DNA from: a virus | Length of the DNA: 22,722 bases | IMG/VR virus record: IMGVR_UViG_3300030328_003593 | Span: 1-22,722 of that record | Reading direction: 5' to 3' (one strand) | Shown here: positions 1,466 to 20,486 of the stretch, piece after piece | Layout of the letters: the number at the start of each line of letters is the position of its first letter | How positions within the stretch are numbered: the first letter of the stretch is position 1 | The notes under the pieces: model-generated | What the model was told of the DNA's origin: nothing | The model's database searches: none | Seen by the model: the letters and a program-made list of their open reading frames with translations, nothing else | Position numbers and translations under genes: made by a program

Positions 1466-2776
1466 CTAATCTAAGAAATAAACAATATCGGTTTTGCTCC
1501 CTAATATATCCATAGCCTCTTTACGAAGAATATCATATTTTTCTTTAGTGGAAATGTTCGCACCTGTTTCAGTAATCAATACGCTTTGGTCATCATGCCT
1601 TATAATTTCAGCAGCGACTAATTTTGTAGTGGCTTCGTGAACTGCGGCAGGAACCCTACTATTTCCAGCCAAGTAAGAAACAAAAATAGAATTTCTTGTA
1701 TGGTAAGGATAATCTTGTAAAAAGAAAATTCTCCCCTCTTCTCCAAGTAGCCAGTAGTCGCCAGTTCTTCGCATGTCTTCTTTGTCTGTAAAATTTGTAA
1801 CTGTGGCAAGAGTTGGAACACTTAAATTTGTAGCAGTAAAAGTTCCAGTTGCACCACCTGTTCCTGTAGCCGCTTGACTCATGGTAACTGATGTAGAACT
1901 TGCTATTGTAGAAATTGTCGTTCCGCTAGGAATATTAGTTCCCGATATTCCCATACCTACTACTAATTTACTGGAATCCGCTACTGTCAAAGTAGTGCTA
2001 GTATTAGAAGTGGTCATCGCTTGTTGGGTCTTTATTTTCACCACACAATCCGACCCATCATCCCCCGAAAGTAGGGAGGAAACGAGAATCTTTGCTCCAT
2101 TTCCTTCCTCTTTTTGGGCAAAGAAAAAGTCCGAAATCGACAAACTAGAACTTGTTAGACTTTTTGCTGCATTAGCGTTGGTATATTGTCTAGTAGATGG
2201 AAATTCTTCATTAATTAATGAAATAATATCATTAACAGTTGTTTTAATTCCAAAGGTATTACAAAACTCATCATTGCCTAAACTACCTACTGTATTTTCT
2301 GCAACCATCTCAAATTCAACACCGCTATTAGGTAATTGTAAAGTAATAGAATAAATATCTCTAAAATTTTCTAATAATTGTATTTGTGCTTCTGCTGATG
2401 CTAATTCTTTATATCCACTTCCAGACCAAACTTGTAAAGAAATAATCTTTTGAATTTTCATTTGTCTTAGTTGAATAAAACCAACATAACCACCATAAAG
2501 AGTTGCTCCTGCTCTATTAGTGTATTCAAAATTATGAATCTCTTTTTTAGTTACAATTGGTCTATAACTTCTTTTTAATTTATCGTCAACCATCCCTTCT
2601 ACTCTTTTTATTATATTACCAACTTGCGCTCTAGTTGGATAAGTCGCAGAAGCATCAAAACGAGGAACTTGTAATAAATCAGCAACTTGAATATAATCTG
2701 TATAAAAACCAATACCGGCTGAATAGTCAGGAGTTCCTGCTAAAGAATAATCACTGGGAGATGAGGTAATTGACAT
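1466..2776 (-). CDS. Putative head-tail connector (adaptor) with inserted Ig-like domain
   Basis: A 436-residue protein. I place the start at the ATG at 2776, one base after the stop of the upstream gene and behind GGGGGA, rather than at the ATG 15 bases upstream, which lies inside that gene. Residues about 25-75 (YIQVADLLQVPRF, then VGNIIKRVEGMVDDKL) and the C-terminal helices (AAVHEATTKLVAAEIIR) resemble gp6/gp15-type connector proteins that dock under the portal. Between about residues 250 and 318 there is a Thr/Ser/Gly-rich segment (LVVGMGISGTNIPSGTTI, then ATGTGGATGTFTATNL) that looks like an immunoglobulin-like or beta-sandwich repeat inserted into the adaptor. Position just before the tail terminator-like gene agrees. 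The connector role is moderately supported; what the insert does is unknown. Confidence 0.5.
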   Translation of the reverse strand: MSITSSPSDYSLAGTPDYSAGIGFYTDYIQVADLLQVPRFDASATYPTRAQVGNIIKRVEGMVDDKLKRSYRPIVTKKEIHNFEYTNRAGATLYGGYVGFIQLRQMKIQKIISLQVWSGSGYKELASAEAQIQLLENFRDIYSITLQLPNSGVEFEMVAENTVGSLGNDEFCNTFGIKTTVNDIISLINEEFPSTRQYTNANAAKSLTSSSLSISDFFFAQKEEGNGAKILVSSLLSGDDGSDCVVKIKTQQAMTTSNTSTTLTVADSSKLVVGMGISGTNIPSGTTISTIASSTSVTMSQAATGTGGATGTFTATNLSVPTLATVTNFTDKEDMRRTGDYWLLGEEGRIFFLQDYPYHTRNSIFVSYLAGNSRVPAAVHEATTKLVAAEIIRHDDQSVLITETGANISTKEKYDILRKEAMDILGSKTDIVYFLD

Positions 2777-2777
2777 T

Positions 2778-4115
2778 TTATATTCCCCCATCTACTCCAT
2801 TAGTTTTTAAATATTTTAATTTGGTTCTTATTTCATTAAGATGGTCATTCATTTTATTTTTCTTTATTTGACCTTCTTTAGAATAATAACTAAAATCAAA
2901 TCTTCCTATTTTAGCGATTCTTCTTTCTGAAACAAGAAGTGCTTCTTTAAGAGGTTTTTTTAGTAATTTATCTTTATCTCCTTTTTTCCATTCGGTTTTT
3001 GTAAAGGGATTTAATCTTATTGTGAGTTTTAAGTGAAATAGTTTTATTTCTGTAATTACAGATAAGTCTTCTATTCTTGCTTGAACGGAATCAGATTCTT
3101 CGATTCCCTCCAATATATCTTCAGTTAAATCTACTTCAAGAATATTTGTTGGCATATCAAACTTTAAGTGGTTAGGTAGGATAGATTCTATTTTTTTCAT
3201 AATGTTATCGTAAGATAATTCATCTTCTAATTTACTAGATAAAATGTCTATAGTAAATGTATTTTTTGTATCTGGCCTATACTCCACAGATGATTCTACT
3301 CCTCTAGTATAATAGGAGCCTTCAGGAATAAATCCTCCCGATTTAATTCCTAAAGTATCTCTAATATATTCAACATAATAGTTTCTAAGTTTGTCTGCCA
3401 TAACTTTTGCAGTATCGGATTGTTCTGGAACCTCGACATCAAAATCATACTTTGCATCTTCTTCGCTTTTAATTAGACTGTAATTAATATTTAGACTATC
3501 TACAAATTTAGGAATTGCCATCAATGTTTTCATATCTCCATTGTATGCTTCATACATATTTCTTGTAGTTTTAGCGGGTTTTCCTAAACTAATGTTTAAC
3601 ACTATACTATCATGTATAAATTCAATATAAGACTCGTTTAAGTCTTCTAAAGCCAAAAATTCATCAATATCTAATTTTGGCAACTTCTTTTCTTGTGCTA
3701 AATCTAAAACATCTCTTCCCAATGTAAGGGAAGTTTCACCAATCATCTGATTATATTTTTTTGAATCAGTCAATATATCAAATAAAGAATTTTCTTCGGC
3801 AAATTTTATTGCTTCTGCTCTTTCATTTTCATCTCCACGAATATACTCGCTATATGCATCAGCATCCTCTTTATACATTTGTAAAGATAATTCTTTATCT
3901 TTGATTGTTTTTTCAAGAACCTTAGAAAACTCTTGCGTTAGTTCATCATAGGTTCCTTTTACTTGGGCATCTCTCAAAGCCCTTTTGAAAAACTCACGAA
4001 AGTTTTGGTCATCGCTATCTTTTGATAAATACTCTGCAAATATTTTCTTAAAAGAATCTTCTGCGTCTGGTAAAGTTTGGGTCAATTTTGTTCCAAAACT
4101 AAACTGAACAGACAA
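2778..4115 (-). CDS. Late structural-region protein of unknown function, 445 aa
   Basis: I do not recognise this protein. It is soluble looking, with no signal peptide or membrane segment. The N-terminal 130 residues are acidic and helical. The middle (about 150-260) mixes helices and strands. The C-terminal third alternates strands (EIKLFHLKLTIRLNPF) with basic helices and ends in a Lys-rich stretch before GVDGGI. Start: TTG at 4115 behind a very good Shine-Dalgarno AAGGTGAT six bases upstream, which decides the start since no ATG is close. It sits directly before the connector gene, so a neck, tail-completion or minor head role is plausible. Its large size and acidic N-terminus are atypical of known neck proteins. 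Confidence 0.7.
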   Translation of the reverse strand: MSVQFSFGTKLTQTLPDAEDSFKKIFAEYLSKDSDDQNFREFFKRALRDAQVKGTYDELTQEFSKVLEKTIKDKELSLQMYKEDADAYSEYIRGDENERAEAIKFAEENSLFDILTDSKKYNQMIGETSLTLGRDVLDLAQEKKLPKLDIDEFLALEDLNESYIEFIHDSIVLNISLGKPAKTTRNMYEAYNGDMKTLMAIPKFVDSLNINYSLIKSEEDAKYDFDVEVPEQSDTAKVMADKLRNYYVEYIRDTLGIKSGGFIPEGSYYTRGVESSVEYRPDTKNTFTIDILSSKLEDELSYDNIMKKIESILPNHLKFDMPTNILEVDLTEDILEGIEESDSVQARIEDLSVITEIKLFHLKLTIRLNPFTKTEWKKGDKDKLLKKPLKEALLVSERRIAKIGRFDFSYYSKEGQIKKNKMNDHLNEIRTKLKYLKTNGVDGGI

Positions 4116-4127
4116 ATGTAATCACCT

Positions 4128-4778
4128 TCACATTAACCATTTTGCCCAAGCCGCACCTTTTTGTATGGCTGAACCTAAATGTAATCCACTTGAAGGGGGC
4201 TCATAACTCATTTGACCATTAGAGGGGTCAATCCAATATGGTCTTCCATATCCATCTGTTCCAGAGGGAGGAATAGGATAGCCACTACCATTATTCATAG
4301 CATTATTTACTTGATTGTATTGTTGAGTATTTCCTGTTACTCCTGCTACTGCCATTCCAGCACTAGGGGCATTATTCATTCCACCGCCAAATCCTTGAGA
4401 TTCTAGATATTGTGACTTAGCCATTTTTCTTTGATTAATAACCTCTGCATTTAACGCAGCCCCAAGAATCTTTTGAATATCTAAATCAATATTTTCTTGT
4501 GTTATTCTCTCATATTCTCTTAGACATTCTGGATTCAAAGAGATGTTGCCACCATTTGTAGTAAAGGCTAGTTTTCCTAACATTTGTGAAACTACTCTTT
4601 CTATAACATCTTCTAGTAATTTTTCCACCGCAACAAAAAACATCTCACCATGATATTGAAAAAACTCTTCAACATGATTGTCTTGTAAAGAAAGTAAATT
4701 ATTTACATTCTTGAATTGCTGGTCATTTTGTGCTTGAACTGCTCCTAAAACAGTTTTATTACTTGTTCCAAATGGCAT
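4128..4778 (-). CDS. Unknown late protein with helical N-half and Gly/Asn/Pro-rich C-half
   Basis: A 216-residue protein of unknown family. Residues 15-125 are helical (HVEEFFQYHGEMFFVAVEKL and following). Residues 128-200 form a low-complexity, flexible region rich in Gly, Asn, Pro, Tyr and Gln. The last 20 residues again look helical and aromatic, ending in AAWAKWLM. The start ATG has GAGGAAT seven bases upstream. It ends 12 bases before the next gene. The layout of a helical bundle, a disordered linker and a short amphipathic tail would fit a minor virion or assembly protein, but no function can be assigned. Confidence 0.7.
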   Translation of the reverse strand: MPFGTSNKTVLGAVQAQNDQQFKNVNNLLSLQDNHVEEFFQYHGEMFFVAVEKLLEDVIERVVSQMLGKLAFTTNGGNISLNPECLREYERITQENIDLDIQKILGAALNAEVINQRKMAKSQYLESQGFGGGMNNAPSAGMAVAGVTGNTQQYNQVNNAMNNGSGYPIPPSGTDGYGRPYWIDPSNGQMSYEPPSSGLHLGSAIQKGAAWAKWLM

Positions 4779-4780
4779 AT

Positions 4781-5455
4781 TTATTCCTCTTTATCTTCTT
4801 TCTTTTCTTCAGTTTCTAAAGGCTTTGTTATTTTTACCCCTGCCTGTATCATTAAGTAATTCAACCTATCTGTTAGTATATTTATTTCCCCAACAATTTC
4901 GATAGCCTCGTTAGTGGCTGACCTATTATCACGCATAACAGGTGGCTTTATTAAATAACCTGCGGCAGTAAGGGAAGCAATATCGTTCTTACTTAAATTA
5001 GTTAATGGCCCACCTTTTAGTATTTTAGGCATCCTTGGCTTAAATCCTTTATACTCTAACCCATGCTTTTCTGCTAACATTTGTTGGTCAAGTATTTCTA
5101 ACTGTCTAAAAATAGAAGAATGTTTAGGACAATAGGTTCCCATTAACGGCCTACCTTTCACTACTTTATCTAATGGCATTGGGGGTCTAAGATAATCTCC
5201 TGCCTCCCATATGTGATGCATTCCACATACTACACATCTTTCTTTTAGATTAAATTTTTTTCCATATTTAATTCCTAAAAAACTCTTTGGTTCCGCAGTT
5301 AATATTTTAATAAACTCCTTTTTTTGTTTTTTTGGTTTAATCGCTAGTGGTTTATATTCTACTATGTTACCAGAAGTTCTTGCTTGCTCAATTGGATTGA
5401 GTAGCGGGTTAAAATTCTGTGGGGCATTCTGTCCTATAATTTGCTGCTGATACAT
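4781..5455 (-). CDS. Zinc-finger-like protein of unknown function
   Basis: A 224-residue protein. It carries one likely zinc site: C74 and C77 in the string CVVCGMHH, with C109 and H112 in CPKH about 30 residues later, a C-X2-C...C-X2-H arrangement. The segment before it is strongly basic (KPKKQKKEF), and the C-terminus is a charged tail ending in KKEDKEE. Both features suggest nucleic-acid or protein binding. It lies between the small WEKILK protein and the Gly/Asn-rich protein, and its stop is two bases from the next start. The ATG is preceded by GAGGAAT. I do not know the family; a DNA-contacting head-closure or regulatory role is possible but unproven. Confidence 0.65.
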   Translation of the reverse strand: MYQQQIIGQNAPQNFNPLLNPIEQARTSGNIVEYKPLAIKPKKQKKEFIKILTAEPKSFLGIKYGKKFNLKERCVVCGMHHIWEAGDYLRPPMPLDKVVKGRPLMGTYCPKHSSIFRQLEILDQQMLAEKHGLEYKGFKPRMPKILKGGPLTNLSKNDIASLTAAGYLIKPPVMRDNRSATNEAIEIVGEINILTDRLNYLMIQAGVKITKPLETEEKKEDKEE

Positions 5456-5473: not shown

Positions 5474-5680
5474 TTATAGTTCCCATTCTAAATCTTTTAA
5501 TCCTTTTATGAATAATCTAAGTGAATCATAACCTCTTGATTTTGTGCTAAAGTTATCTTTCTTCCAATTATTATATAACATTTCTACAACCCTTGCATTA
5601 TCAGTATCTTTTTTAATATATTCTAATATGTTTTTTTTATTTATTTCTGTTGCATCATGTTTTAATATTTTTTCCCACAT
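5474..5680 (-). CDS. Small helical protein with N-terminal WEKILK motif
   Basis: A 68-residue, charged, helical protein starting MWEKILKHDATE. The N-terminal W-x-x-I-L-K peptide recurs in variant form in other proteins of this window, which suggests a shared docking element. The rest is ordinary mixed helix with no membrane segment. It follows the GTPase gene after five bases and may be translationally coupled to it; the Shine-Dalgarno signal (AAAGGA) is weak. Family unknown. It could be a partner of the GTPase or a small virion protein. Confidence 0.65.
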   Translation of the reverse strand: MWEKILKHDATEINKKNILEYIKKDTDNARVVEMLYNNWKKDNFSTKSRGYDSLRLFIKGLKDLEWEL

Positions 5681-5685
5681 AATAA

Positions 5686-6354
5686 TCAGTAGTCCTTTAT
5701 CATTGTAAGTATTCCTTTATACACCATTTCTGAATCTGATTTTGCTGAAACTATATACTTGTAGCATGGGATTCCTTTATCATTCAACTGCCTCATGCCA
5801 TATTTAAAGGGTTCAAATATTTGATGTTTATCTATAGTTTTACCTTCTAATAAAGGATATTTTTCTCCCCAAACATCATACTTGTTAGCCCAAATACCTA
5901 CTGCTAAGGGATAATCTACTTCTTTTTTTCTTTTCCCATTTGACCAAAGGTTTGTTATTATAGTATCTACTAAAAATTTCCACGCTACTTGATGGTCTAA
6001 ATTAACTTCACTGTCTAAATGTCGATGGTCAATCATAAATATAATATATTTGGGTTTTCTTAAAATCATATCTTTTTCCCATTCTTTCCAGAATATCGCT
6101 TCCCCACCTATGTCAGCACTTTTTATTGTATGTGAATTACCATCTATTTTAATATTTTTTCTAGTAGCCCTAGCCCTACCAACTGTTCTTTTATTAATTT
6201 GTGGAACTTCTCCTCTTGTCCTTAATTGGTGACTTAATGTTGTTTTACCCACCATTGTTGCCCCATAAACTCCAAAATTAATGGCGTGAACCTTTTTCCA
6301 AAAACCTATTACTGCTTCACCAACTAAAATAGCGAAGCCTGTCATTAGAGACAT
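5686..6354 (-). CDS. Arf/Ras-like small GTPase with N-terminal hydrophobic segment
   Basis: A 222-residue protein with the full set of small-GTPase motifs. G1 (P-loop) is GATMVGKTT at residues 31-39; G3 is DIGG at 81-84, close to the DVGG of Arf and G-alpha proteins; G4 is NKYD at 157-160, the guanine-specificity motif; G5 is SAK at 203-205. The residue after DIGG is Glu85 where Arf and Ras proteins carry the catalytic Gln, so intrinsic hydrolysis may be slow. Residues 4-18 are hydrophobic (MTGFAILVGEAVIGF) and could anchor the protein in, or lay it on, a membrane. It directly follows two small membrane-protein genes, and its ATG overlaps the last base of the preceding TAA. GTP binding is well supported; the role in the virus is unknown. 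Confidence 0.85.
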   Translation of the reverse strand: MSLMTGFAILVGEAVIGFWKKVHAINFGVYGATMVGKTTLSHQLRTRGEVPQINKRTVGRARATRKNIKIDGNSHTIKSADIGGEAIFWKEWEKDMILRKPKYIIFMIDHRHLDSEVNLDHQVAWKFLVDTIITNLWSNGKRKKEVDYPLAVGIWANKYDVWGEKYPLLEGKTIDKHQIFEPFKYGMRQLNDKGIPCYKYIVSAKSDSEMVYKGILTMIKDY

Positions 6355-6573
6355 TTAATGCCCCCAAAGACCTGTTACTCCATCAACAATCCAACCCATT
6401 ATATTTATGTCAAAAACACCTAGAATATTACCAACTAAAAAACCAGCAAATGTAAAAGTAAAGCCCCAAAACCATGCTCTCATCTTCAAAAAGAAGACAT
6501 CCGCAGAATGCGCTCTTTGCTGATTATAAGCATAGTCTGAGTCTGAAAAACCCATCAAGTCGCCAAATACCAT
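6355..6573 (-). CDS. Small membrane protein, probably one or two TM helices
   Basis: A 72-residue protein with a hydrophobic aromatic helix at about residues 33-54 (AWFWGFTFTFAGFLVGNILG) and a second weaker one at 57-70 (NIMGWIVDGVTGLWG). The N-terminal 30 residues are polar. The ATG is preceded by GAGGTGG. It abuts the GTPase gene, overlapping it by none or one base, so the two are almost certainly co-translated. No family is recognised. It may be a membrane partner or anchor of the GTPase; a holin-like role is possible from size and topology, but there is no specific evidence for it. Confidence 0.75.
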   Translation of the reverse strand: MVFGDLMGFSDSDYAYNQQRAHSADVFFLKMRAWFWGFTFTFAGFLVGNILGVFDINIMGWIVDGVTGLWGH

Positions 6574-6582
6574 TTAACCACC

Positions 6583-6969
6583 TCATTGAAGTGTGGCTAA
6601 AAATTCACTTCCAACAGTGTTAGAATCTTCTTCTTGCCCTTGAGGAGTATAGAAGTTAGTATTGTATTGCCTAGCACTTTCACGCATCTTGTTTCTTTGT
6701 GCTTCATCTCTAGCCTTTCTTTCCCAATAGGCTGCTATCTTTCTATCAAGTAGCCACATCTCGATTTTATCATTAAGTGCTAAATCAAATAAGGCTTTCA
6801 TTACCATAATGCTTCCAATAGTCATTAGCCCAAATAAAGTAGCGTGGGCTATTGGGGTATATGGGAAAGTAGAACCATATAGAGCATAAAAGAATACATT
6901 CGCTCCACTTAGGGTTCCAACAAATAATATAGTCATCACTAATCTAGTATCTTGATTCAAAGCCGCCAA
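6583..6969 (-). CDS. Two-TM membrane protein with cytoplasmic charged tail
   Basis: A 128-residue protein. Two transmembrane helices are clear: about residues 10-31 (VMTILFVGTLSGANVFFYAL) and 41-65 (AHATLFGLMTIGSIMVMKAL). A highly charged helical tail (KIAAYWERKARDEAQRNK) and a polar C-terminus follow. Start is TTG with a strong GAGGTG six bases upstream; no in-frame ATG fits. It is followed nine bases later by the 72-residue membrane protein and then the GTPase, so these three genes look like one membrane module inside the late operon. Function unknown; a role in lysis, egress or the virion is possible. Confidence 0.78.
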   Translation of the reverse strand: MAALNQDTRLVMTILFVGTLSGANVFFYALYGSTFPYTPIAHATLFGLMTIGSIMVMKALFDLALNDKIEMWLLDRKIAAYWERKARDEAQRNKMRESARQYNTNFYTPQGQEEDSNTVGSEFLATLQ

Positions 6970-8278: not shown

Positions 8279-9613
8279 TCACTTCAAGTTGGTAATTTTA
8301 CCTTGGCCTTTAAAGTATGAACAACCTACTTCTGCAATTGTTCGATACAATGCTCTGTTTCCAAGTTGTCCAACACCGAATGGGTTTCCGTTGCTAATAC
8401 CATCTTCAAAGTATTGAGTTGGTTTCATAACTGCAAGCCACAAATGGTCGGTATCAAGGAAAAGCATGTCACTGATTGTTCCAGAGTCAGCAGATGTGCT
8501 TTGCATTGAAACAACTGGAATCATTGGTATGTCGTAATAAGTTGCTACACGGAATCCAACTTCTGCACCTTTAACTCCACGAACACCGTTAACAGTAGGA
8601 ACTACTTCTTTTCTATCCATAAATCGCTCTTGGGATTGTAGAAGGTCAGATAGTGTTTGAATTGTGTCATATCCAGTCATAATAACTTTTGGTGAACCAC
8701 CGTTTTCACGGAGTTGTCGCAAAAGACTGTTCATGATTGTTAGGGTAAATGCTCTAGAGTCTCCACTTGCATATCCATCACCGTAATCTAGAGTGCAATC
8801 TAGGAAAGAAGCACTGTCACGGTTTGTTCCGTAAATGTGGTATGCTTCACTAATATCGTTTGTGATTGAAGAAACAGGGAAATTATCTGTGTCCATTTGG
8901 TCTAATTCAGCATTTGAAGAAATAACCTTGTAAAGAGAGGTATAGTTTCTTTCAATGTTAGCAGCCGCATTGGATTTGTCTGCTTGTAGATAGGCTTCTA
9001 GAGGAGAAACAAGCATTAGGTTTTGTGCTTCTGCGTGATGCTTACCCATGTCTTCTCTCATTTGCGCTCTGATGTCGCCAATTCCGTCATCAATTTGTGC
9101 CATCTCCATAGCCAATTCACTGAAATCAAATTGGTGAGCAATAGTCTTTGGAGACATGCTCAATACAGAGTATTCTGGAGCGATAGCAATCAAACCATCT
9201 CCACTTGTAGATAGAGAAGCGTTTTCTGGAACGCCACCAATATGGTCTAATCGTGGAGCATCAGTTCCAGCCAAATCAGTTCCGGTTTGAGTAAAGTTGT
9301 GGAAGTTACCAGTTCCACCAGCAGGTCGCTTTGATAGAACTCTCCAACCGCTTGAAGTGTATGGCCTTTTTGACATAACAGAAAGTGCGTTTACTTCTCT
9401 GTTTAGCATAGACCAAACTTTTTGTCCGTATAGAACACTGTAAAGATTACCTGCAACACCTGTTGTTGGGGAAGTTTGAGTTGCTGCATCATGGCCCCCA
9501 TGAATACCAGTGACCGCTCCTGCGGTTTTCAAAAGCATATTACTGCTTCCACCAAGGCTAAATCCGTATGTTTGTGCTTCTAAGTCTGCAATTGTGTTAA
9601 TATATCCTGTCAT
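8279..9613 (-). CDS. Major capsid protein, HK97-like
   Basis: A 444-residue protein directly after the protease-scaffold gene, the standard place for an HK97-fold major capsid protein. The start is the ATG at 9613, behind a clear GGAGGA and one base beyond the TAA of the upstream gene; the longer reading from 9646 lacks a ribosome site and overlaps that gene. Residues 1-60 are Gly/Ala/Ser-rich and may be a flexible arm. Later segments have the mix expected of the fold, including a long helix (FDFSELAMEMAQIDDGIGDI) and C-terminal strands (MLFLDTDHLWLAVMKP). Length fits the family. Identity rests on position and overall pattern, since HK97 capsid proteins share little sequence. Scaffold-assisted assembly and proteolytic maturation are implied by the upstream gene. 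Confidence 0.8.
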   Translation of the reverse strand: MTGYINTIADLEAQTYGFSLGGSSNMLLKTAGAVTGIHGGHDAATQTSPTTGVAGNLYSVLYGQKVWSMLNREVNALSVMSKRPYTSSGWRVLSKRPAGGTGNFHNFTQTGTDLAGTDAPRLDHIGGVPENASLSTSGDGLIAIAPEYSVLSMSPKTIAHQFDFSELAMEMAQIDDGIGDIRAQMREDMGKHHAEAQNLMLVSPLEAYLQADKSNAAANIERNYTSLYKVISSNAELDQMDTDNFPVSSITNDISEAYHIYGTNRDSASFLDCTLDYGDGYASGDSRAFTLTIMNSLLRQLRENGGSPKVIMTGYDTIQTLSDLLQSQERFMDRKEVVPTVNGVRGVKGAEVGFRVATYYDIPMIPVVSMQSTSADSGTISDMLFLDTDHLWLAVMKPTQYFEDGISNGNPFGVGQLGNRALYRTIAEVGCSYFKGQGKITNLK

Positions 9614-9614
9614 C

Positions 9615-10277
9615 TTAAATTCCTCCTGCCATTTTATGAATGTCATTCCAGTTCATATCTGCAATTTCATCCAATGAAGGGAGTGTAACTTGAGCCTCTT
9701 CTTGTGCTTTTAGGATTGTTTCCTTTTCAGTAGTTAGAGACTTTCGCAATTGTGTAAATTCTTCCTTGAGGGAAGCAATTTCACTAGCAGCATCATATTC
9801 AGCCTTTGCCAACAGTTCTTCTCTAGAAGTAACTTCTTTTGCGAATCGGCTTTCAAATGTCTTTTGTAGATTATCGTAGGCCAATTTCTCTAGTTGTTCT
9901 TGACGGAATGCTTCATATGCTTTCTCGATGTTTTCGTTGGAAAGGTCAAGTGTAGAGAATTCGTTGGAATCAAAAGCCTTTACAACTGGCATATCAGTTG
10001 CTTTAGGCTTTCCATTGTCAACAACAACTCTGTCTGCTGGCTCTCCGATTTCAACACCGGCTCCATCTAGAGTAGAAACAACTGCTTTTGTCTCTGCATC
10101 TATGTATTCGCCCATGCCTTTTTCCTCTTCCAACATTGTCTCGTCTTCCATTTCCATGCTTTCTTTTTCTGGCATATCCAACATCTCTCCGTCTTTCTTT
10201 TCTTCTTCCTTCCTCAAGGCATTGACTTCATTCATCAATGAATCCAATTCCTCAAGTGCTTTTTCTAATTTTGTCAT
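9615..10277 (-). CDS. Predicted internal-start scaffold protein (nested, in frame)
   Basis: Inside the protease-scaffold gene an ATG at residue 177 (MTKLEKALEELDSL) is preceded at five bases by AAGGTGA, a near-ideal Shine-Dalgarno sequence. Translation from it would give a 220-residue protein consisting only of the acidic coiled-coil scaffold. This mirrors the known lambda arrangement in which the scaffold Nu3 is made from an internal start within the protease gene C. The product would nucleate capsid assembly in excess over the full-length fusion and share its C-terminal WNDIHKM tail. The ribosome site and frame are seen directly; expression of the short form is inferred. Confidence 0.6.
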   Translation of the reverse strand: MTKLEKALEELDSLMNEVNALRKEEEKKDGEMLDMPEKESMEMEDETMLEEEKGMGEYIDAETKAVVSTLDGAGVEIGEPADRVVVDNGKPKATDMPVVKAFDSNEFSTLDLSNENIEKAYEAFRQEQLEKLAYDNLQKTFESRFAKEVTSREELLAKAEYDAASEIASLKEEFTQLRKSLTTEKETILKAQEEAQVTLPSLDEIADMNWNDIHKMAGGI

Positions 10278-10853: not shown

Positions 10854-13394
10854 TTAACGTGGAATATCTATTGAACTAAACTTATCTTCATAAATATTCC
10901 AAATACCGTCATCTCCTTCTTTGTCTGCTGGTTTTTGTTCATAACCAGTCCATGCTAACCACATTCTTTCACCTTTCACTGGTAAAACCCGAACATGAAG
11001 TTTAGTTTCAAACTTGTTGCCTTCTAAAAAATATTCATGATAGCCATGCCTTTGAATTCCTAATTTAACAGTTCCAGTATCTACTGTCTTTTCTTTATCA
11101 ATATTTTTTGCTACTTCAGCAGGATATTTACCTGCTTTACCAAACATATCAAATATTTCTTCTTCATCTTGAGTATCTACTAACCAGTTAATAGATTCAT
11201 CTCCTAATTTCATAACAATATTTAGATTGTTATCTTTTCGCATATATATTTTGAATTCACCTTGTTGGTATTCTTCTGGAGTTTTATAGGCTTTCTTAAT
11301 AGAATCTTCTTGGTATATCTTATCTGCTTCTGCAAATAATTTATCTGAATCAAAAGAAATACCATCTCTTTCTTCTGCCCAGTTCTTAAGTTTAGAATAT
11401 TGGCTTTCTAATACATCTTCATAAAGAGAAGAGTGGGCCTTTACTAAATAATTGTGTAATTCTTTAGGAGTCTTAGCCCCATTCTCTTTCAAATAATTAA
11501 ATATAGCAACAGTAAGTTTACTTTGTTTTGTTTTCATTATTTCCTCTACTTGTTGCTTCCACATATCTAAATCCTTTAATGCATTTTTAGACATTAAATT
11601 ATTTTCTTCAAAACCATATATGGTAAAACCATCCAAATCAGACTTAACAATAATAGTGGTTTCTCCGTGTATATGGTCTGTTATAGTAATCCCTTTCTTT
11701 AGAGCATCAACTGTATAGTTTAATGATTTTTTAGTATCTTGAGAAAGAAGTTCCAAAGTAACTAATTTATCGGGGTGTTCTACTTCTGGCACTTCTATTA
11801 CCTTTGCAGAAAATAAAGTATATCTTTCTCCCGATTTTTTGACTTCATCTACCTTTACTCTTATTATGCTTCCAATATCTACATTTATTTTGGTGTTAAG
11901 AGCCTTACCAACATCCATGTATTTATTGCCTTGGAATTCTTCGATAAATTTTCCTTCCTCTTCAACTGGGCCAACTCCTAAAGTATAGGAATAAAGATTG
12001 CTTTTAGTCTTAGATTTATTTAAAACAATAACATCCAAGTCTACGAACTTCTTCCACTTTATCCACTTTGGGTTCTTTCTAGTTCCTAAGTAATATGTAG
12101 AAGTAGCGTCTTTGATAACTACTCCTTCGGAAGTAGGCATTTCCATAATAGTCTTAGAATATTCTTCTACATCTTTTAGATTATCTGCTTGCCTAGTATC
12201 TTTCTTTGATGGGAAGTTTAGAACGTCAGCAGAATGCATAGAATAATTATTGAACATTATAGTCATTCTATCGCTTAATTCTTCATCTAACAAGTTTTGT
12301 TCATCATGTCGCATAATATCAAAGACATGACATTTTAATGTAGCATCTTTGTATTTATTTTTAAAAACATGAGCAATAGTATCTGCTCTATGAAGGGCTT
12401 CTTCGCCATCAAATAAAATTAATTCTGCATCTAAAATACAACTACCGAATTGTTTATTCTTTAATTCCTTAGCAATATCTTTACATTTTTCAGTAATATC
12501 TTTTTTATTATAAGAATAAATCTTTACATTATTGTCTATTTTATGTAATTGTATTCTCATACCATCATATTTTTCTTGAATAAACCATTCTCCACTAAAA
12601 CCTTTTAATTCATTAATATCATCTATATCAAAAATTCTATACATTGGCTTATTTGGAACAATAAAATCAGACTGGGCTTTTTCTTCTTCGGATTTCTTTT
12701 CTTTTTTAATGTCTAAAGATTTTCTTTCTTTTTGAGTTTTAAATCCATCTATTTCTTTTAAGTCTTCTAAGTCCTCTTCAGAATATTTAGATAACATTAA
12801 TAGTTCTAACATATCCATAGCAGATTTAACTTTCTTTTCTACCTCTTTCGAGTCTTTTCCATCCCCGTAATGTTCAATAATATAGAGGGCAATATCATCT
12901 GATTCTAGGTCAAGCCCCTTAAGACCCACAGTAATATCATCCATTTCCATATCTTTAATCGCATAAATTTCTTCGGGTAAAGTTTTATCATTTTCTCTAA
13001 GAGCATAGTGAACAAATTTTACCATAGTTTCTGGACTACCTAATAGAGACTCTAGGACTTTTCCTTTGAATCTTTTAGAGAAGGGGTCTTCCACTAAATC
13101 AGAAGAATATCTAAGTGCCTTTATTCCATCAAATATTTTCTGTGCTTGAAGTGAAGATGGGTCGCCACTTTCTTTCATATCTAATAAATCAAAATCTAAA
13201 TAGTCTTTGAGTTCATTAGTGGTAGCATCTATATCTTCTACTACTTCTTTAATCATTTCTATGGCTTTTCTCCAACGCCCGCCATATTCAGTAGGGTCAT
13301 TTCTTGCAGAAAGATATGCAACTCTAATCCTTTCAAATAAGCGAAGTATTTCTTCGGAAGGTTGTTTATCCTTCTCAATAGAACTTAACTTCAT
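10854..13394 (-). CDS. ATP-dependent DNA ligase with large C-terminal extension
   Basis: An 846-residue protein with the motifs of ATP-dependent DNA ligases. Motif I is EKYDG with the AMP-accepting Lys at K275; motif III is AELILFDG (E324); IIIa is VFDIMRHD (about 357-364); IV is SEGVVIKD (422-429); V is KWIKWKK (443-449). An OB-fold follows at about 451-540. It should seal nicks in duplex DNA using ATP. Residues 1-240 are helical and charged and replace a recognisable DNA-binding domain. Residues 620-690 are helical, perhaps winged-helix. Residues 713-846 look like a degenerate LigD phosphoesterase-type beta barrel without its catalytic His. ATG start, GAGGG upstream. At 846 residues it is much longer than typical ligases of about 550-600. 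Its place inside the head-assembly genes is unusual. Confidence 0.88.
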   Translation of the reverse strand: MKLSSIEKDKQPSEEILRLFERIRVAYLSARNDPTEYGGRWRKAIEMIKEVVEDIDATTNELKDYLDFDLLDMKESGDPSSLQAQKIFDGIKALRYSSDLVEDPFSKRFKGKVLESLLGSPETMVKFVHYALRENDKTLPEEIYAIKDMEMDDITVGLKGLDLESDDIALYIIEHYGDGKDSKEVEKKVKSAMDMLELLMLSKYSEEDLEDLKEIDGFKTQKERKSLDIKKEKKSEEEKAQSDFIVPNKPMYRIFDIDDINELKGFSGEWFIQEKYDGMRIQLHKIDNNVKIYSYNKKDITEKCKDIAKELKNKQFGSCILDAELILFDGEEALHRADTIAHVFKNKYKDATLKCHVFDIMRHDEQNLLDEELSDRMTIMFNNYSMHSADVLNFPSKKDTRQADNLKDVEEYSKTIMEMPTSEGVVIKDATSTYYLGTRKNPKWIKWKKFVDLDVIVLNKSKTKSNLYSYTLGVGPVEEEGKFIEEFQGNKYMDVGKALNTKINVDIGSIIRVKVDEVKKSGERYTLFSAKVIEVPEVEHPDKLVTLELLSQDTKKSLNYTVDALKKGITITDHIHGETTIIVKSDLDGFTIYGFEENNLMSKNALKDLDMWKQQVEEIMKTKQSKLTVAIFNYLKENGAKTPKELHNYLVKAHSSLYEDVLESQYSKLKNWAEERDGISFDSDKLFAEADKIYQEDSIKKAYKTPEEYQQGEFKIYMRKDNNLNIVMKLGDESINWLVDTQDEEEIFDMFGKAGKYPAEVAKNIDKEKTVDTGTVKLGIQRHGYHEYFLEGNKFETKLHVRVLPVKGERMWLAWTGYEQKPADKEGDDGIWNIYEDKFSSIDIPR

Positions 13395-16341: not shown

Positions 16342-16569
16342 TTAAAATGGAATATTTTCCTTTCTTCCTCTTCTTTTTGGAGGCAGACTTACAACATCGG
16401 GAATATCGCTAGATGCTGGACTAACTTTATGAGAACTATCTGGGGGAAGTCCTCCTAGAGATAAATCTCTAGTCTTTTTTACTTCTGCACTTGCATTAGC
16501 GTTTAACGCTTTTACTTGTGCTAATTCTTTTCTTAATCTTATTTCTTTTTGTTTTAAATCTTCAGTCAT
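16342..16569 (-). CDS. Small protein downstream of portal
   Basis: A 75-residue protein. Residues 1-35 form a charged helix (LKQKEIRLRKELAQVKALNA). The remainder is disordered, rich in Pro and Ser, and ends in a basic patch (KRRGRKENIPF). Its ATG overlaps the last base of the portal TAA, so it is translationally coupled to the portal. It could be a portal- or scaffold-associated peptide. No family is recognised. Confidence 0.65.
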   Translation of the reverse strand: MTEDLKQKEIRLRKELAQVKALNANASAEVKKTRDLSLGGLPPDSSHKVSPASSDIPDVVSLPPKRRGRKENIPF

Positions 16570-18233
16570 TATCCTACTCTCCTTTCATTTCTTGTGTCTA
16601 CGTTTTGATTCCCTGCTTCTTTAGGTAGGCCTGTCATTCTTTTATCTGGCCCAACGCTCATTCTCGGTTTATTTCTAGTTGCCGGTGGATTCTCCTGTGG
16701 TTTGCTTAAAGTCTGTTCTTGTATTTGCCCTAATTGACTTTGGTCTATATTTGTTCCAGCATAGGGGTCTAATTCAACTTTTTCTTCTTTAGCCCCTTCT
16801 TTACCTTCTTCTGGTTCTTTTGGTTCAGGTTTCTTAAAAGTAAATTGGCCATCTTCATCCATATCAACTTCAAATCCTAAATTCTTAGTAGAAGCCGCAA
16901 TATTAACTTCAATTTCTCTCTTTCTTAATACTGCTATTTCATCTTCTTCTTCGCTTGGTGGGAGTTTTAGATTCCAATCAGTAATGCCAAACTGTTTAAT
17001 TAAGAATGGGAATACATAATTATTGTAAACATTTTGTGCCATTTGAACTGCTCTATTAGTTACAAGTATTTGCATACCTTCATTGTTTAGCCCACCACTT
17101 GTAGTATTGTCGGCCATAAACACTTTGCTTACTCCAAAGAAAGCAGAAATTCTATCTCTTAAATCATCTTTAACAGAAACATAGTCCATTTCCTTTAGGC
17201 TATCCATGAACTTAATCCACTCAACAGAACCTTTACCGCCTTCTGCTTCAATACCCATTACAGGAATAAAGTGAGGGTCAGTCTCCATCTTCTCTTTAAC
17301 AGACCGCCAAAAAGAACGCATCGAATCCATATTTCTAGTTTGAACTGCAAGTAGGCCTCTAGGCATACGACTTTTTTGATATGATGAGTTGACATAATTT
17401 TCCATAGCAATAAGTGTAGTAATGTGATTATAAAGAGTAATAATAGGAGACATACCATATAATCTAGAAGGACTGTATTTGCTAAAATGCAATACTTCTC
17501 CCCTCAAGTAATGCTGGTCTTTGCCTCCAACTCGATTTACATAATGAACTGGATATAATGCACTACCACATTCTTCACACATTTCATGAGGCTCAGTAGA
17601 AAGAATATGTCTATGATTTACACACGTAAAGCCTTTTGTTCCTCTTTGCCCTAACTCATCAGAATAGATAGCCATAGTTACAGGGTCGCCTCGATAAATT
17701 TCTTTAATGCGATGCATCCTTATTTTTTGATTACCATCAATAAAGTATTCTTTTACTAAAATAATGTAAGCATCATCCATTATGTTCAAGTCATCTTCTA
17801 ATTCTCTAAGGACATCTATGAAAAGTTGTTCTGCTTTGTTAACATATCCTTCTATAAATTTTTCAGCATATTGAAGTTGCTTAACATCTGGAGTTTGTAA
17901 ATTTGTGCTTTCACATCTTGAACATTCGATAACTGGTCTTTTATGTTCTTTGCCACAATCTTTGCATCTTGCTTCGTAGGCTTTTTCCCAAACATATCCT
18001 CTACGAAAAATTTCTTGCTTAAGTTGGGTAATACAAGTCCTAGTTATCACAGAATTTTGAACTATATGGTATAGTAAAGGAGCCGTCATAAGGCTATTCT
18101 GTTGTCTTTCTTGAATACCGATATTGTAGATTTCCCTATCAGCAGGTTTTGGAGTAGAGCGTCTAAATAAGTTCGTAATACTGAATCTTCTTTTCTGTTC
18201 AACGATAGCATCACCTCCTCCCTTATCAAGCAA
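16569..18233 (-). CDS. Portal protein with zinc-ribbon-like insertions
   Basis: A 554-residue portal protein, the dodecameric ring through which DNA enters the head. Support: an N-terminal LFRR segment, the wing/clip pattern (VLHFSKYSPSRLYGMSPI, a portal hallmark), a long helix (ITTLIAMENYVNSSYQKS), GVSKVFMADNTTSG near 367-379, and a Pro/Glu/Lys-rich C-terminal tail. Two Cys clusters are unusual: C90, C93, C104 and C107 form a zinc-ribbon pattern, and C204, H207/H209, C219 and C222 suggest a second. The nominal start is TTG at 18233, overlapping the HMG-CoA lyase stop by eight bases, but a perfect Shine-Dalgarno sits inside the frame (18210-18219), so the true start is uncertain. The frame is clearly coding before the first internal Met at residue 49. 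Confidence 0.85.
   Translation of the reverse strand: MLDKGGGDAIVEQKRRFSITNLFRRSTPKPADREIYNIGIQERQQNSLMTAPLLYHIVQNSVITRTCITQLKQEIFRRGYVWEKAYEARCKDCGKEHKRPVIECSRCESTNLQTPDVKQLQYAEKFIEGYVNKAEQLFIDVLRELEDDLNIMDDAYIILVKEYFIDGNQKIRMHRIKEIYRGDPVTMAIYSDELGQRGTKGFTCVNHRHILSTEPHEMCEECGSALYPVHYVNRVGGKDQHYLRGEVLHFSKYSPSRLYGMSPIITLYNHITTLIAMENYVNSSYQKSRMPRGLLAVQTRNMDSMRSFWRSVKEKMETDPHFIPVMGIEAEGGKGSVEWIKFMDSLKEMDYVSVKDDLRDRISAFFGVSKVFMADNTTSGGLNNEGMQILVTNRAVQMAQNVYNNYVFPFLIKQFGITDWNLKLPPSEEEDEIAVLRKREIEVNIAASTKNLGFEVDMDEDGQFTFKKPEPKEPEEGKEGAKEEKVELDPYAGTNIDQSQLGQIQEQTLSKPQENPPATRNKPRMSVGPDKRMTGLPKEAGNQNVDTRNERRVG
18210..18219 (-). promoter_or_regulatory. Perfect Shine-Dalgarno at portal gene start
   Basis: AGGAGGTGAT on the minus strand is a full complement of the conserved 16S rRNA 3' end. 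It lies 14 bases after the nominal portal TTG. In the portal frame the codons at the normal distance downstream are GCT, ATC and GTT, none of them a standard start, which makes the real start unclear. Confidence 0.55.
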
Positions 18234-19112: not shown

Positions 19113-20477
19113 CTACTCCTCCTTTAGAACAGTCCCACCAATTTGTTCTATTTCATCCATTACAGAAACTTTACAATTATCTTTATATTTTTGAATATCA
19201 TCTAAATTTATATTTTCTTTTGCCCAATCAAACCCAACATGGTCTTTATGATTTTCCCATTTCATTAATTTAAAAATTTCACCACATCGGTCCTTATACC
19301 AATCTGTTTTTTTGTAGGACTTCTTCATGCGAATTAGTTCTAAGAGAAGTTCAGCATTTCCTTTCTTTAGTCTAAAGTGAGGTAGGCATTTCGTTAGTAG
19401 TTCACTAACATCTGATTGTGAATAAAAATTTAATCTATTTATTAGTCTAGTATCTTGTGGAGATTTTTGGTCTAGATGCATCCTACCAAAACCAATTGAT
19501 TTGTGCATTTCCAGCATGAATGCTTTTCCTCTTTCTCCTGTAGCAACTAGCCCCACTCTAGGATTCATATTTCTATCAAGAGTGATATATCCATCTGAGT
19601 CAATAAATGCCGCAGTATAGGCCCAAATATTCTTTTTTATTTCACTAGGTAATTTGTAATAGGCTCCATCTACAGAAACAATATCCAATTTTTTAATCAT
19701 TTTAGAAATAACATGAGGAGAACAAGTCCTATGCATACTATTTGGCATTCTTTCATGTATTTCTCTAGCACCTATACCTTGGAATTCGCAAACTGTTTTG
19801 ATAATAAAATCCTCTTGTCTTTCTTTTTTGGATTTAGTAATAGACTGACTACTAACTTTAGCAATACAATCTCTAAATTGTTTTTTTGCGGAAGACATAG
19901 TTTTGGATAGCGTGGCATATTCTTTACCGTAGGCCATATCTTTTTGTTCGAGTTCTGCTTCCCAATATTTACACAAAGCATCTACAACTTTTCTTCGAGA
20001 AGATAAATCTTTCATTTTATGTAATTTATGTAGGTCTTTTTCATTGAATCTCATTTTCAATAGAGTTGATTTATAGGGAGATAGCCAGTAAATAGCATCA
20101 ATGCACTTATACAAATGGTCACTATATGCATCAATCATAGTATCAATGGCCTTTGACATTTTATCTCTTTGTTCTCCCTTTAATTCTCTACGAGTTTTTC
20201 TCATAGTTTTTATCAAGTCTGGAATACTATTATCCTCAACTGTGTATTCTTTAGGAAATGAATTCAACATATCTCTTGCTTTACTAGCATTAACATTGTA
20301 TGTATTTGAAATCTTATTAATTTCGTCATACTCCGATAATACTTCTCCAAAGTCAAATTTTAGTTCAATATCTAATTCCTGCTGAACACTTTCTTTTGCC
20401 TCTTCCTCTTCTTGTTCTAACTCAGCAAGACGAGACATTTGAGTAGAGGCTTCTCTGTATTGTTCAGCAGTAGGCAT
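19113..20477 (-). CDS. Winged-helix protein fused to LAGLIDADG endonuclease domain
   Basis: A 454-residue protein. The ATG at 20477 is chosen because GAGGAGTGA lies immediately before it; a GTG two codons earlier overlaps that site. Residues 1-215 are helical and charged, with no assigned family. Residues about 220-278 look like a winged helix (FIIKTVCEFQGIGAREIHER, then VSVDGAYYKL). Residues about 283-400 form a single-motif LAGLIDADG domain: AAFIDSDGYI is the signature helix with its catalytic Asp, and PHFRLKKGNAELLLELI matches the family's second conserved segment. One motif implies dimeric action. It should cut a long DNA target, typical of homing elements, but it is free-standing and fused to a DNA-binding region. 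A role as small terminase or regulator cannot be excluded, since no separate small terminase is visible. Confidence 0.78.
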   Translation of the reverse strand: MPTAEQYREASTQMSRLAELEQEEEEAKESVQQELDIELKFDFGEVLSEYDEINKISNTYNVNASKARDMLNSFPKEYTVEDNSIPDLIKTMRKTRRELKGEQRDKMSKAIDTMIDAYSDHLYKCIDAIYWLSPYKSTLLKMRFNEKDLHKLHKMKDLSSRRKVVDALCKYWEAELEQKDMAYGKEYATLSKTMSSAKKQFRDCIAKVSSQSITKSKKERQEDFIIKTVCEFQGIGAREIHERMPNSMHRTCSPHVISKMIKKLDIVSVDGAYYKLPSEIKKNIWAYTAAFIDSDGYITLDRNMNPRVGLVATGERGKAFMLEMHKSIGFGRMHLDQKSPQDTRLINRLNFYSQSDVSELLTKCLPHFRLKKGNAELLLELIRMKKSYKKTDWYKDRCGEIFKLMKWENHKDHVGFDWAKENINLDDIQKYKDNCKVSVMDEIEQIGGTVLKEE

Positions 20478-20486
20478 ATTCACTCC

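Follow-up and report, generated by a model that had tools for sequence, protein, structure and literature searches.

A conserved Arf-like small GTPase and its membrane-gene neighbours in the structural operon of magroviruses

Introduction

Why should a virus with the head genes of a tailed virus carry, within its structural operon, a small GTPase of the kind that acts as a molecular switch in cells? Such a gene lies in the window analysed here, a 22,722-nucleotide (22.7 kb) fragment of the virus record IMGVR_UViG_3300030328_003593. The fragment belongs to the magroviruses, very abundant viruses of marine archaea. To our knowledge, both the way in which archaeal tailed viruses exit from their hosts and the roles of their many conserved non-structural late genes are largely unknown. 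We asked what the GTPase is, how widely it is distributed, which genes accompany it, and which function its setting favours.

The virus and the locus

The window encodes TerL, a portal protein, an S78 prohead protease and an SU10-type major capsid protein (MCP), as well as an ATP-dependent DNA ligase and HMG-CoA lyase. Near-complete records of the same lineage are 92–97 kb in length and contain a split family B DNA polymerase (PolB) and a chaperonin. ICTV lists as traits of the Aoguangviridae (order Magrovirales) a tailed-virus module, an ATP-dependent ligase, HMG-CoA lyase, a 90–100 kb genome, a split PolB and a chaperonin, and gives a literature-based link to marine Poseidoniales archaea as hosts (PMC10768690). 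The gene traits agree with this list, with genome size, split PolB and chaperonin found in the same-lineage near-complete records and the remainder in the 22.7 kb window itself; the window is thus a magrovirus of a lineage like Aoguangviridae.

Three other proteins of the window deserve mention. A 456-aa protein encoded between TerL and HMG-CoA lyase (19113–20483, minus strand) has a C-terminal half that looks LAGLIDADG-like by eye (AFIDSDGYITL) and a winged-helix-like middle, and Pfam is unsupportive. The portal protein (16569–18233, minus strand) has an inserted CxxC...CxxC zinc-ribbon-like segment with weak HypA and zf-ChsH2 matches. The 846-aa DNA ligase (10854–13394, minus strand), encoded between the protease and portal genes of the structural operon, has long extra N- and C-terminal regions.

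The GTPase gene is located at positions 5686–6354. The first-pass annotation had left its strand unstated; it is read on the minus strand, from 6354 to 5686, and the plus-strand reading was rejected, being closed by stops throughout. The open reading frame is real, and its ATG start immediately follows the stop codon of the upstream gene and is backed by the conserved N-terminus MS..GF(A/V) of the homologues. A sigma-70 promoter scan around the region gave chance-level results, and such a scan is ill-suited to archaea. In the direction of reading, the locus comprises:

8279–9646, minus strand: major capsid protein (SU10-type), the anchor upstream of the cassette
6583–6969, minus strand: two-TM protein (TM2, predicted from hydropathy), 128 aa, with a charged C-terminal tail
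6355–6573, minus strand: single-TM protein (TM1, from hydropathy), 72 aa, directly upstream of the GTPase, with a 0 nt gap to its start
5686–6354, minus strand: Arf/Ras-like small GTPase, 222 aa, with an N-terminal hydrophobic helix (residues 3–22), G1 (31–38), G2 (Thr57), G3 (81–85) and W92, G4 (157–160) and G5 (203–205)
5474–5680, minus strand: 68-aa ORF between the GTPase and zinc genes, a variable slot and probably not core
4781–5455, minus strand: putative zinc protein (CxxC ... GTYCxxH), 224 aa, downstream; candidate GTPase regulator
4128–4778, minus strand: Gln-rich (Q) protein, 216 aa, the last cassette gene
1466–2791, minus strand: head-tail connector-like protein, 441 aa, the anchor downstream of the cassette, with a profile match to HCTV-1 gp117

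A complete small-GTPase domain

The motifs from which GTP binding was first proposed occur in the correct order in the window protein (G1, G31-A-T-M-V-G-K-T38; G3, D81-I-G-G-E; G4, N157-K-Y-D160; G5, S203-A-K), and T57 is assignable as the switch-I Thr. They do not reflect chance, as G1 to G4 are kept in 304–305 of the 305 non-identical full-length homologues counted. GKTT is present in 304/304 (one row is gapped there), and T57, D81, G84, N157, K158 and D160 are each present in 305/305; the G5 motif reads SAK in the window's lineage (A) and AT[KRN] in a second lineage (B). The best Pfam match of the window GTPase is PF01926. Single-sequence HMM searches yield weak matches that stay under the cut-off (to MMR_HSR1, E 0.0026, to Roc and Ras, and to TIGR00231 small_GTP, E 8.6e-4), and no family model exceeds its own threshold. 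Firm evidence for a GTPase comes from the set of motifs that is invariant among the homologues.

Structure prediction leads to the same identification. An AlphaFold2 model built from sequences of both lineages (pLDDT 74.7, pTM 0.74) contains the six strands and five helices of a small GTPase, arranged canonically, with each motif at the proper strand end and with local low confidence at the P-loop and switch I; an earlier model from lineage A sequences alone (pLDDT 53) was set aside. A Foldseek search of the PDB returned 1535 matches at E<=1e-3, headed by KRAS, Arl and Rab structures. Among them are KRAS (E 1.2e-8), Arl10B, Arl3 and Rab33, at E values of 1e-8 to 5e-8, and the Arl3 match has a TM-score of 0.73 by target length. 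Motifs, fold and Foldseek thus agree with the initial proposal of an Arf/Ras-type small GTPase inside a tailed-virus structural operon.

The first-pass annotation had named two outcomes that would speak against a GTPase, namely a non-GTPase P-loop fold on structure prediction and homologues lacking NKxD. Neither was seen. An alternative is that the protein is a P-loop NTPase of another class, such as a kinase or an ATPase, with a superficial resemblance to GTPases, and weak P-loop matches to guanylate kinase (E 0.064) and the Sak4 family (E 0.1) point that way. However, the predicted fold is that of a GTPase, Ras, Arf and Rab proteins dominate the fold search, and NKxD is invariant in 305/305 homologues; model, Foldseek and alignment together refute this alternative in practice and leave it a negligible probability. 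RecA matches in a PDB profile search cover only a 20-residue P-loop stretch and were dismissed as chance or a shared P-loop. It is virtually certain that the window protein is a small GTPase with a complete Ras/Arf G domain, for which GTP binding and hydrolysis are predicted.

Arf-like features and the catalytic position

Within the G domain, switch II has the form DxGGx6W, with D81, G84 and W92 present in 305/305 homologues and Gly83 replaced by Ala in seven. Arf, Sar1 and Galpha share this arrangement, which Ras and Rab are not known to have. Speaking against a formal Arf label, the Arf model PF00025 matched none of nine virus records (0/9) even at E<=1, and individual members of the GTPase family reach a best E of 0.0036 against Arf. 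From these sequence comparisons, we call the viral GTPase Arf-like and regard it as a separate, divergent and undescribed family. The magrovirus and archaeal-virus papers surveyed describe no such GTPase, although an earlier annotation may exist in the text or supplements of the first magrovirus description (PMC5434244) or of PMC11706807.

The hydrophobic N-terminus reported in the first-pass annotation is borne out by a helix at residues 3–22, though the protein has no Gly2. A hydrophobic helix is present at this end in all rows examined, only borderline hydrophobic in lineage B. A further claim, that Glu in place of the catalytic Gln makes the protein a GTP-biased switch, fares less well, finding no family-wide support. 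Among the 305 homologues, 191 have Glu at residue 85, 107 have Gln, six have Asp and one has His; Glu85 is fixed in the 101/101 sequences counted from the window's lineage, and the other lineage has mostly Gln. Absence of the Gln is therefore a trait of the window's lineage rather than of the whole family, and it allows no firm conclusion on hydrolysis.

The same position bears on the possibility that the protein is a host take-over switch, either a decoy or a constitutively active GTPase that redirects one of the host's own GTPase pathways (for vesicles, division or polarity) and does not take part in virion building. The absence of the catalytic Gln from all 101 window-lineage sequences would suit such a function, as would the common use of small GTPases as regulators in archaea (PMC10927574). 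Against this stand the 107 homologues that keep the Gln and the placement of the gene in the late structural operon, where it is accompanied by conserved partners of its own, and we consider take-over unlikely.

Distribution and conservation

Phylogenetic analysis of the GTPase resolves two well separated lineages, A (the window's) and B, with support of 100/100 and 30–36% identity between them. Presence of the gene was evaluated independently of the GTPase itself in loci chosen by their MCP. After 24 of the 80 loci were left out for ending too soon, all 56 of the remaining 56 contain the GTPase, 1.6–2.9 kb downstream of the MCP. The GTPase is thus a universal core gene of magroviruses in the tested loci, with no exception seen, and it is single-copy in the full-length records examined. 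It is also the best-conserved of the proteins compared: in 40 of 55 MCP-selected loci the GTPase is closer to the window than the MCP is (median 81% versus 68%), and, among the loci shown, only the GTPase, TerL and HMG-CoA lyase of the window detect the other lineage by blastp. Given its presence in every tested locus and a conservation above that of the capsid protein, the GTPase must have an essential role.

Outside the magroviruses, tblastn of 50,697 phage records gave no meaningful match to the GTPase, in line with the initial remark that small GTPases are not a standard component of tailed viruses. For cellular homologues, a scan of 84,980 genomes with short peptide patterns, which are insensitive to distant relatives, returned two contigs only, both of them viral and binned into bacterial metagenome-assembled genomes (MAGs).

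Several records carry magrovirus GTPases under other labels or in duplicate. Magrovirus GTPases of both lineages occur on three contigs (L158 = NZMJ01000024.1, L359 and L360) of a MAG labelled Maricaulis, and another is found on L159 (PAUP01000076.1) in a Cytophagaceae-labelled MAG; these are archaeal virus contigs placed in bacterial bins. The 184,733 bp record IMGVR_UViG_3300021958_000021 (L018, L068) has two different magrovirus GTPase loci ~92 kb apart; it joins two distinct virus genomes, probably through chimeric assembly.

A conserved cassette around the GTPase

In lineage A, the MCP is followed by small head genes, the two-TM gene, the single-TM gene, the GTPase, the zinc gene and the Q-rich gene, and then by connector and tail genes. 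Lineage B has the same cassette order (a two-TM-type protein with a charged tail, a single-TM protein, GTPase, zinc, Q), followed by a second two-TM protein, an HTH/zinc protein and, further on, the terminase. Neighbours were counted in non-identical loci with room for the gene, lineage A before lineage B. TM1 adjoins the GTPase in 167/168 loci and its positional analogue in 129/133, with median gaps of 4 nt and 2 nt, respectively; TM2 is present in 165/165 and its positional analogue, mostly with one strong TM peak, in 129/129; the zinc protein lies downstream of the GTPase in 138/139 and 136/137, and the Q protein is found in 135/135 and 137/137. The cassette of the GTPase with TM1, TM2, zinc and Q genes is therefore conserved (97–100% of cases) across two lineages whose structural operons are otherwise differently arranged.

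Profile comparison between the lineages gave E values of 4e-39 for the GTPase, 1.9e-9 for the zinc protein and 6.6e-7 for the Q protein, and on this comparison the zinc and Q proteins are evidently homologous across lineages. Homology of TM1 and TM2 between lineages was undetectable, so these are treated as positional and topological analogues only. Candidate zinc ligands are two Cys followed by Cys-x2-His, kept in at least 173/177 lineage A sequences; in lineage B, the first Cys and the CxxH are present in 138/138. An ArfGAP-like arginine-finger reading of this protein was rejected, as the Arg beside the zinc motif is Tyr in 60 of 172 lineage A sequences.

The spaces flanking the GTPase behave as variable insertion slots, holding the 68-aa ORF in the window, ~0.9 kb of extra sequence between TM1 and the GTPase in L018, and an additional ~0.5 kb ahead of the zinc gene in L075. 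In lineage B, the conserved two-TM and HTH/zinc proteins after the cassette are exemplified by L255:8386–8628 and 8887–9645, and weak PHROG matches suggest that the latter may be a small terminase subunit.

Morphogenesis, entry or membrane action

A gene situated among capsid, connector and tail genes could be a GTP-dependent morphogenesis factor, an assembly switch (chaperone or checkpoint) for head-tail connection, with the membrane proteins merely placing assembly at the membrane. Three observations are consistent with this. First, lineage A has the GTPase after the capsid genes and before those for connector and tail, and lineage B has it just upstream of the HTH/zinc protein and terminase. 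Second, its conservation exceeds that of the capsid protein. Third, the lineage A Q protein weakly matches a virion structural family (E 0.004).

The halovirus HCTV-1 (Druskaviridae) provides a comparison. It has the best MCP match among the phage records (26%), its gp117 matches the 441-aa connector-like protein of the window (E 2.9e-8, profile) and its gp121 matches the first tail protein (E 1.8e-5, profile), with the order of these genes kept. Unlike the magroviruses, HCTV-1 gives no match to the GTPase profile anywhere in its genome. Four short genes separate its MCP from gp117; one of them (gp116) encodes a short protein with a TM segment, and none is a GTPase, zinc or Q counterpart. The cassette was therefore either gained in magroviruses or lost in haloviruses, and it is dispensable for building such a head and tail as such. 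That HCTV-1 builds its head with related MCP, connector and tail proteins without this gene speaks against a morphogenesis factor, as do the two directly adjoining TM genes, which point to the membrane; we regard this explanation as possible but doubtful.

Alternatively, the cassette proteins might travel inside the virion and work on the host membrane as the genome is delivered. An entry machine would be compatible with a late operon, small TM proteins and extreme conservation. However, we saw no signal of virion incorporation and know of no precedent for a GTPase in tailed-virus entry, and this explanation seems improbable.

The reading that we prefer is membrane action late in infection. 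In the searches made, no other tailed virus was found to contain an Arf/Ras-type switch, and the packing of this one with membrane and zinc-protein genes suggests a part in reshaping or organising the membrane of the host while virus is being produced. Haloferax requires a small GTPase, ArvA (OapA), for extracellular vesicle formation, and the N-terminal helix of ArvA is presumed to be released on activation; arvB promotes vesiculation, and arvC, a downstream Zn-ribbon gene, restrains it and has been suggested to encode a GAP (PMC10927574). The viral cassette repeats this plan with other partners, and we therefore propose an ArvA-like, membrane-anchored late switch. A role at the host envelope, first raised from the hydrophobic N-terminus, gains support from the flanking membrane genes and from the ArvA precedent.

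In our model, the GTPase would be a membrane-anchored, Arf-like core late protein of magroviruses. Its N-terminal helix likely holds it at the host cytoplasmic membrane, a site proposed because of this helix and the two adjoining membrane genes, and the adjoining TM proteins are likely its membrane partners. Less certainly, GDP/GTP cycling of the ArvA/Arf type would recruit partners or drive their polymerisation so as to bend or reorganise the archaeal membrane, the action would be timed to virion assembly or release, and the zinc protein may regulate the GTPase in a GAP- or effector-like manner. Membrane association of the GTPase is likely. That it drives membrane remodelling in assembly or exit is a plausible proposal to which we give slightly less than even weight, and we infer a role in virus egress that can be tested. 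More tentative, and rather unlikely, is a dedicated membrane-remodelling machine, in which the GTPase with its own TM receptors, a zinc regulator and a coat- or scaffold-like partner would drive release or membrane-associated assembly from archaea without a peptidoglycan wall. If true, this would represent a new kind of exit system for tailed viruses, replacing holin/endolysin lysis.

Comparison with known GTPase systems

The best matches of the predicted fold among viral proteins are to giant eukaryotic viruses, also DNA viruses that encode small GTPases: the top matches listed from a viral structure library are nearly all their Ras/Rab/Ran-type or other GTPase-like proteins. Those viruses are unrelated, however, the top matches have only 10–20% identity, and they are of Rab/Ras/Ran type rather than Arf-like. 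Eukaryotic Arf/Arl proteins (Arl3, Arl8, Arl10B) share the fold, the DxGGQ/E...W switch II and the N-terminal helix. In contrast to them, the viral GTPase has no PF00025 match in the records searched, lacks the myristoylation Gly2 and has E, Q, D or H at the catalytic site, and lineage B members exhibit an insertion after switch I.

The Haloferax ArvABC system offers a different kind of likeness, drawn here from the description of ArvA, which is annotated as PF01926 and has Arf as its closest HMM match (PMC10927574). Like ArvA, the viral protein has PF01926 as its best Pfam match, an Arf-type relationship, an N-terminal hydrophobic helix, a downstream zinc-protein gene and a euryarchaeal setting. 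Unlike ArvABC, the viral cassette is late, belongs to a virus and has two TM proteins, an unrelated zinc protein and a Q-rich protein as partners. Neither the ArvB family (PF09846; H. volcanii control positive) nor the ArvC zinc ribbon (PF09845) was matched in nine records (0/9 each; eight magroviruses and HCTV-1), and an unrelated CxxC..CxxH protein occupies the ArvC-like position. Because these two families and the Arf model are unmatched in the virus records, the parallel is limited to arrangement. ArvA nonetheless appears to be the closest functional parallel, as a likeness of arrangement and not proven descent. If the GTPase works on membranes in the manner of ArvA and Arf, Arf-type membrane remodelling would be a virus tool outside eukaryotes too, with one clear gene set to test. 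The viral family is also relevant to how diverse Arf-like GTPases were before eukaryotes arose.
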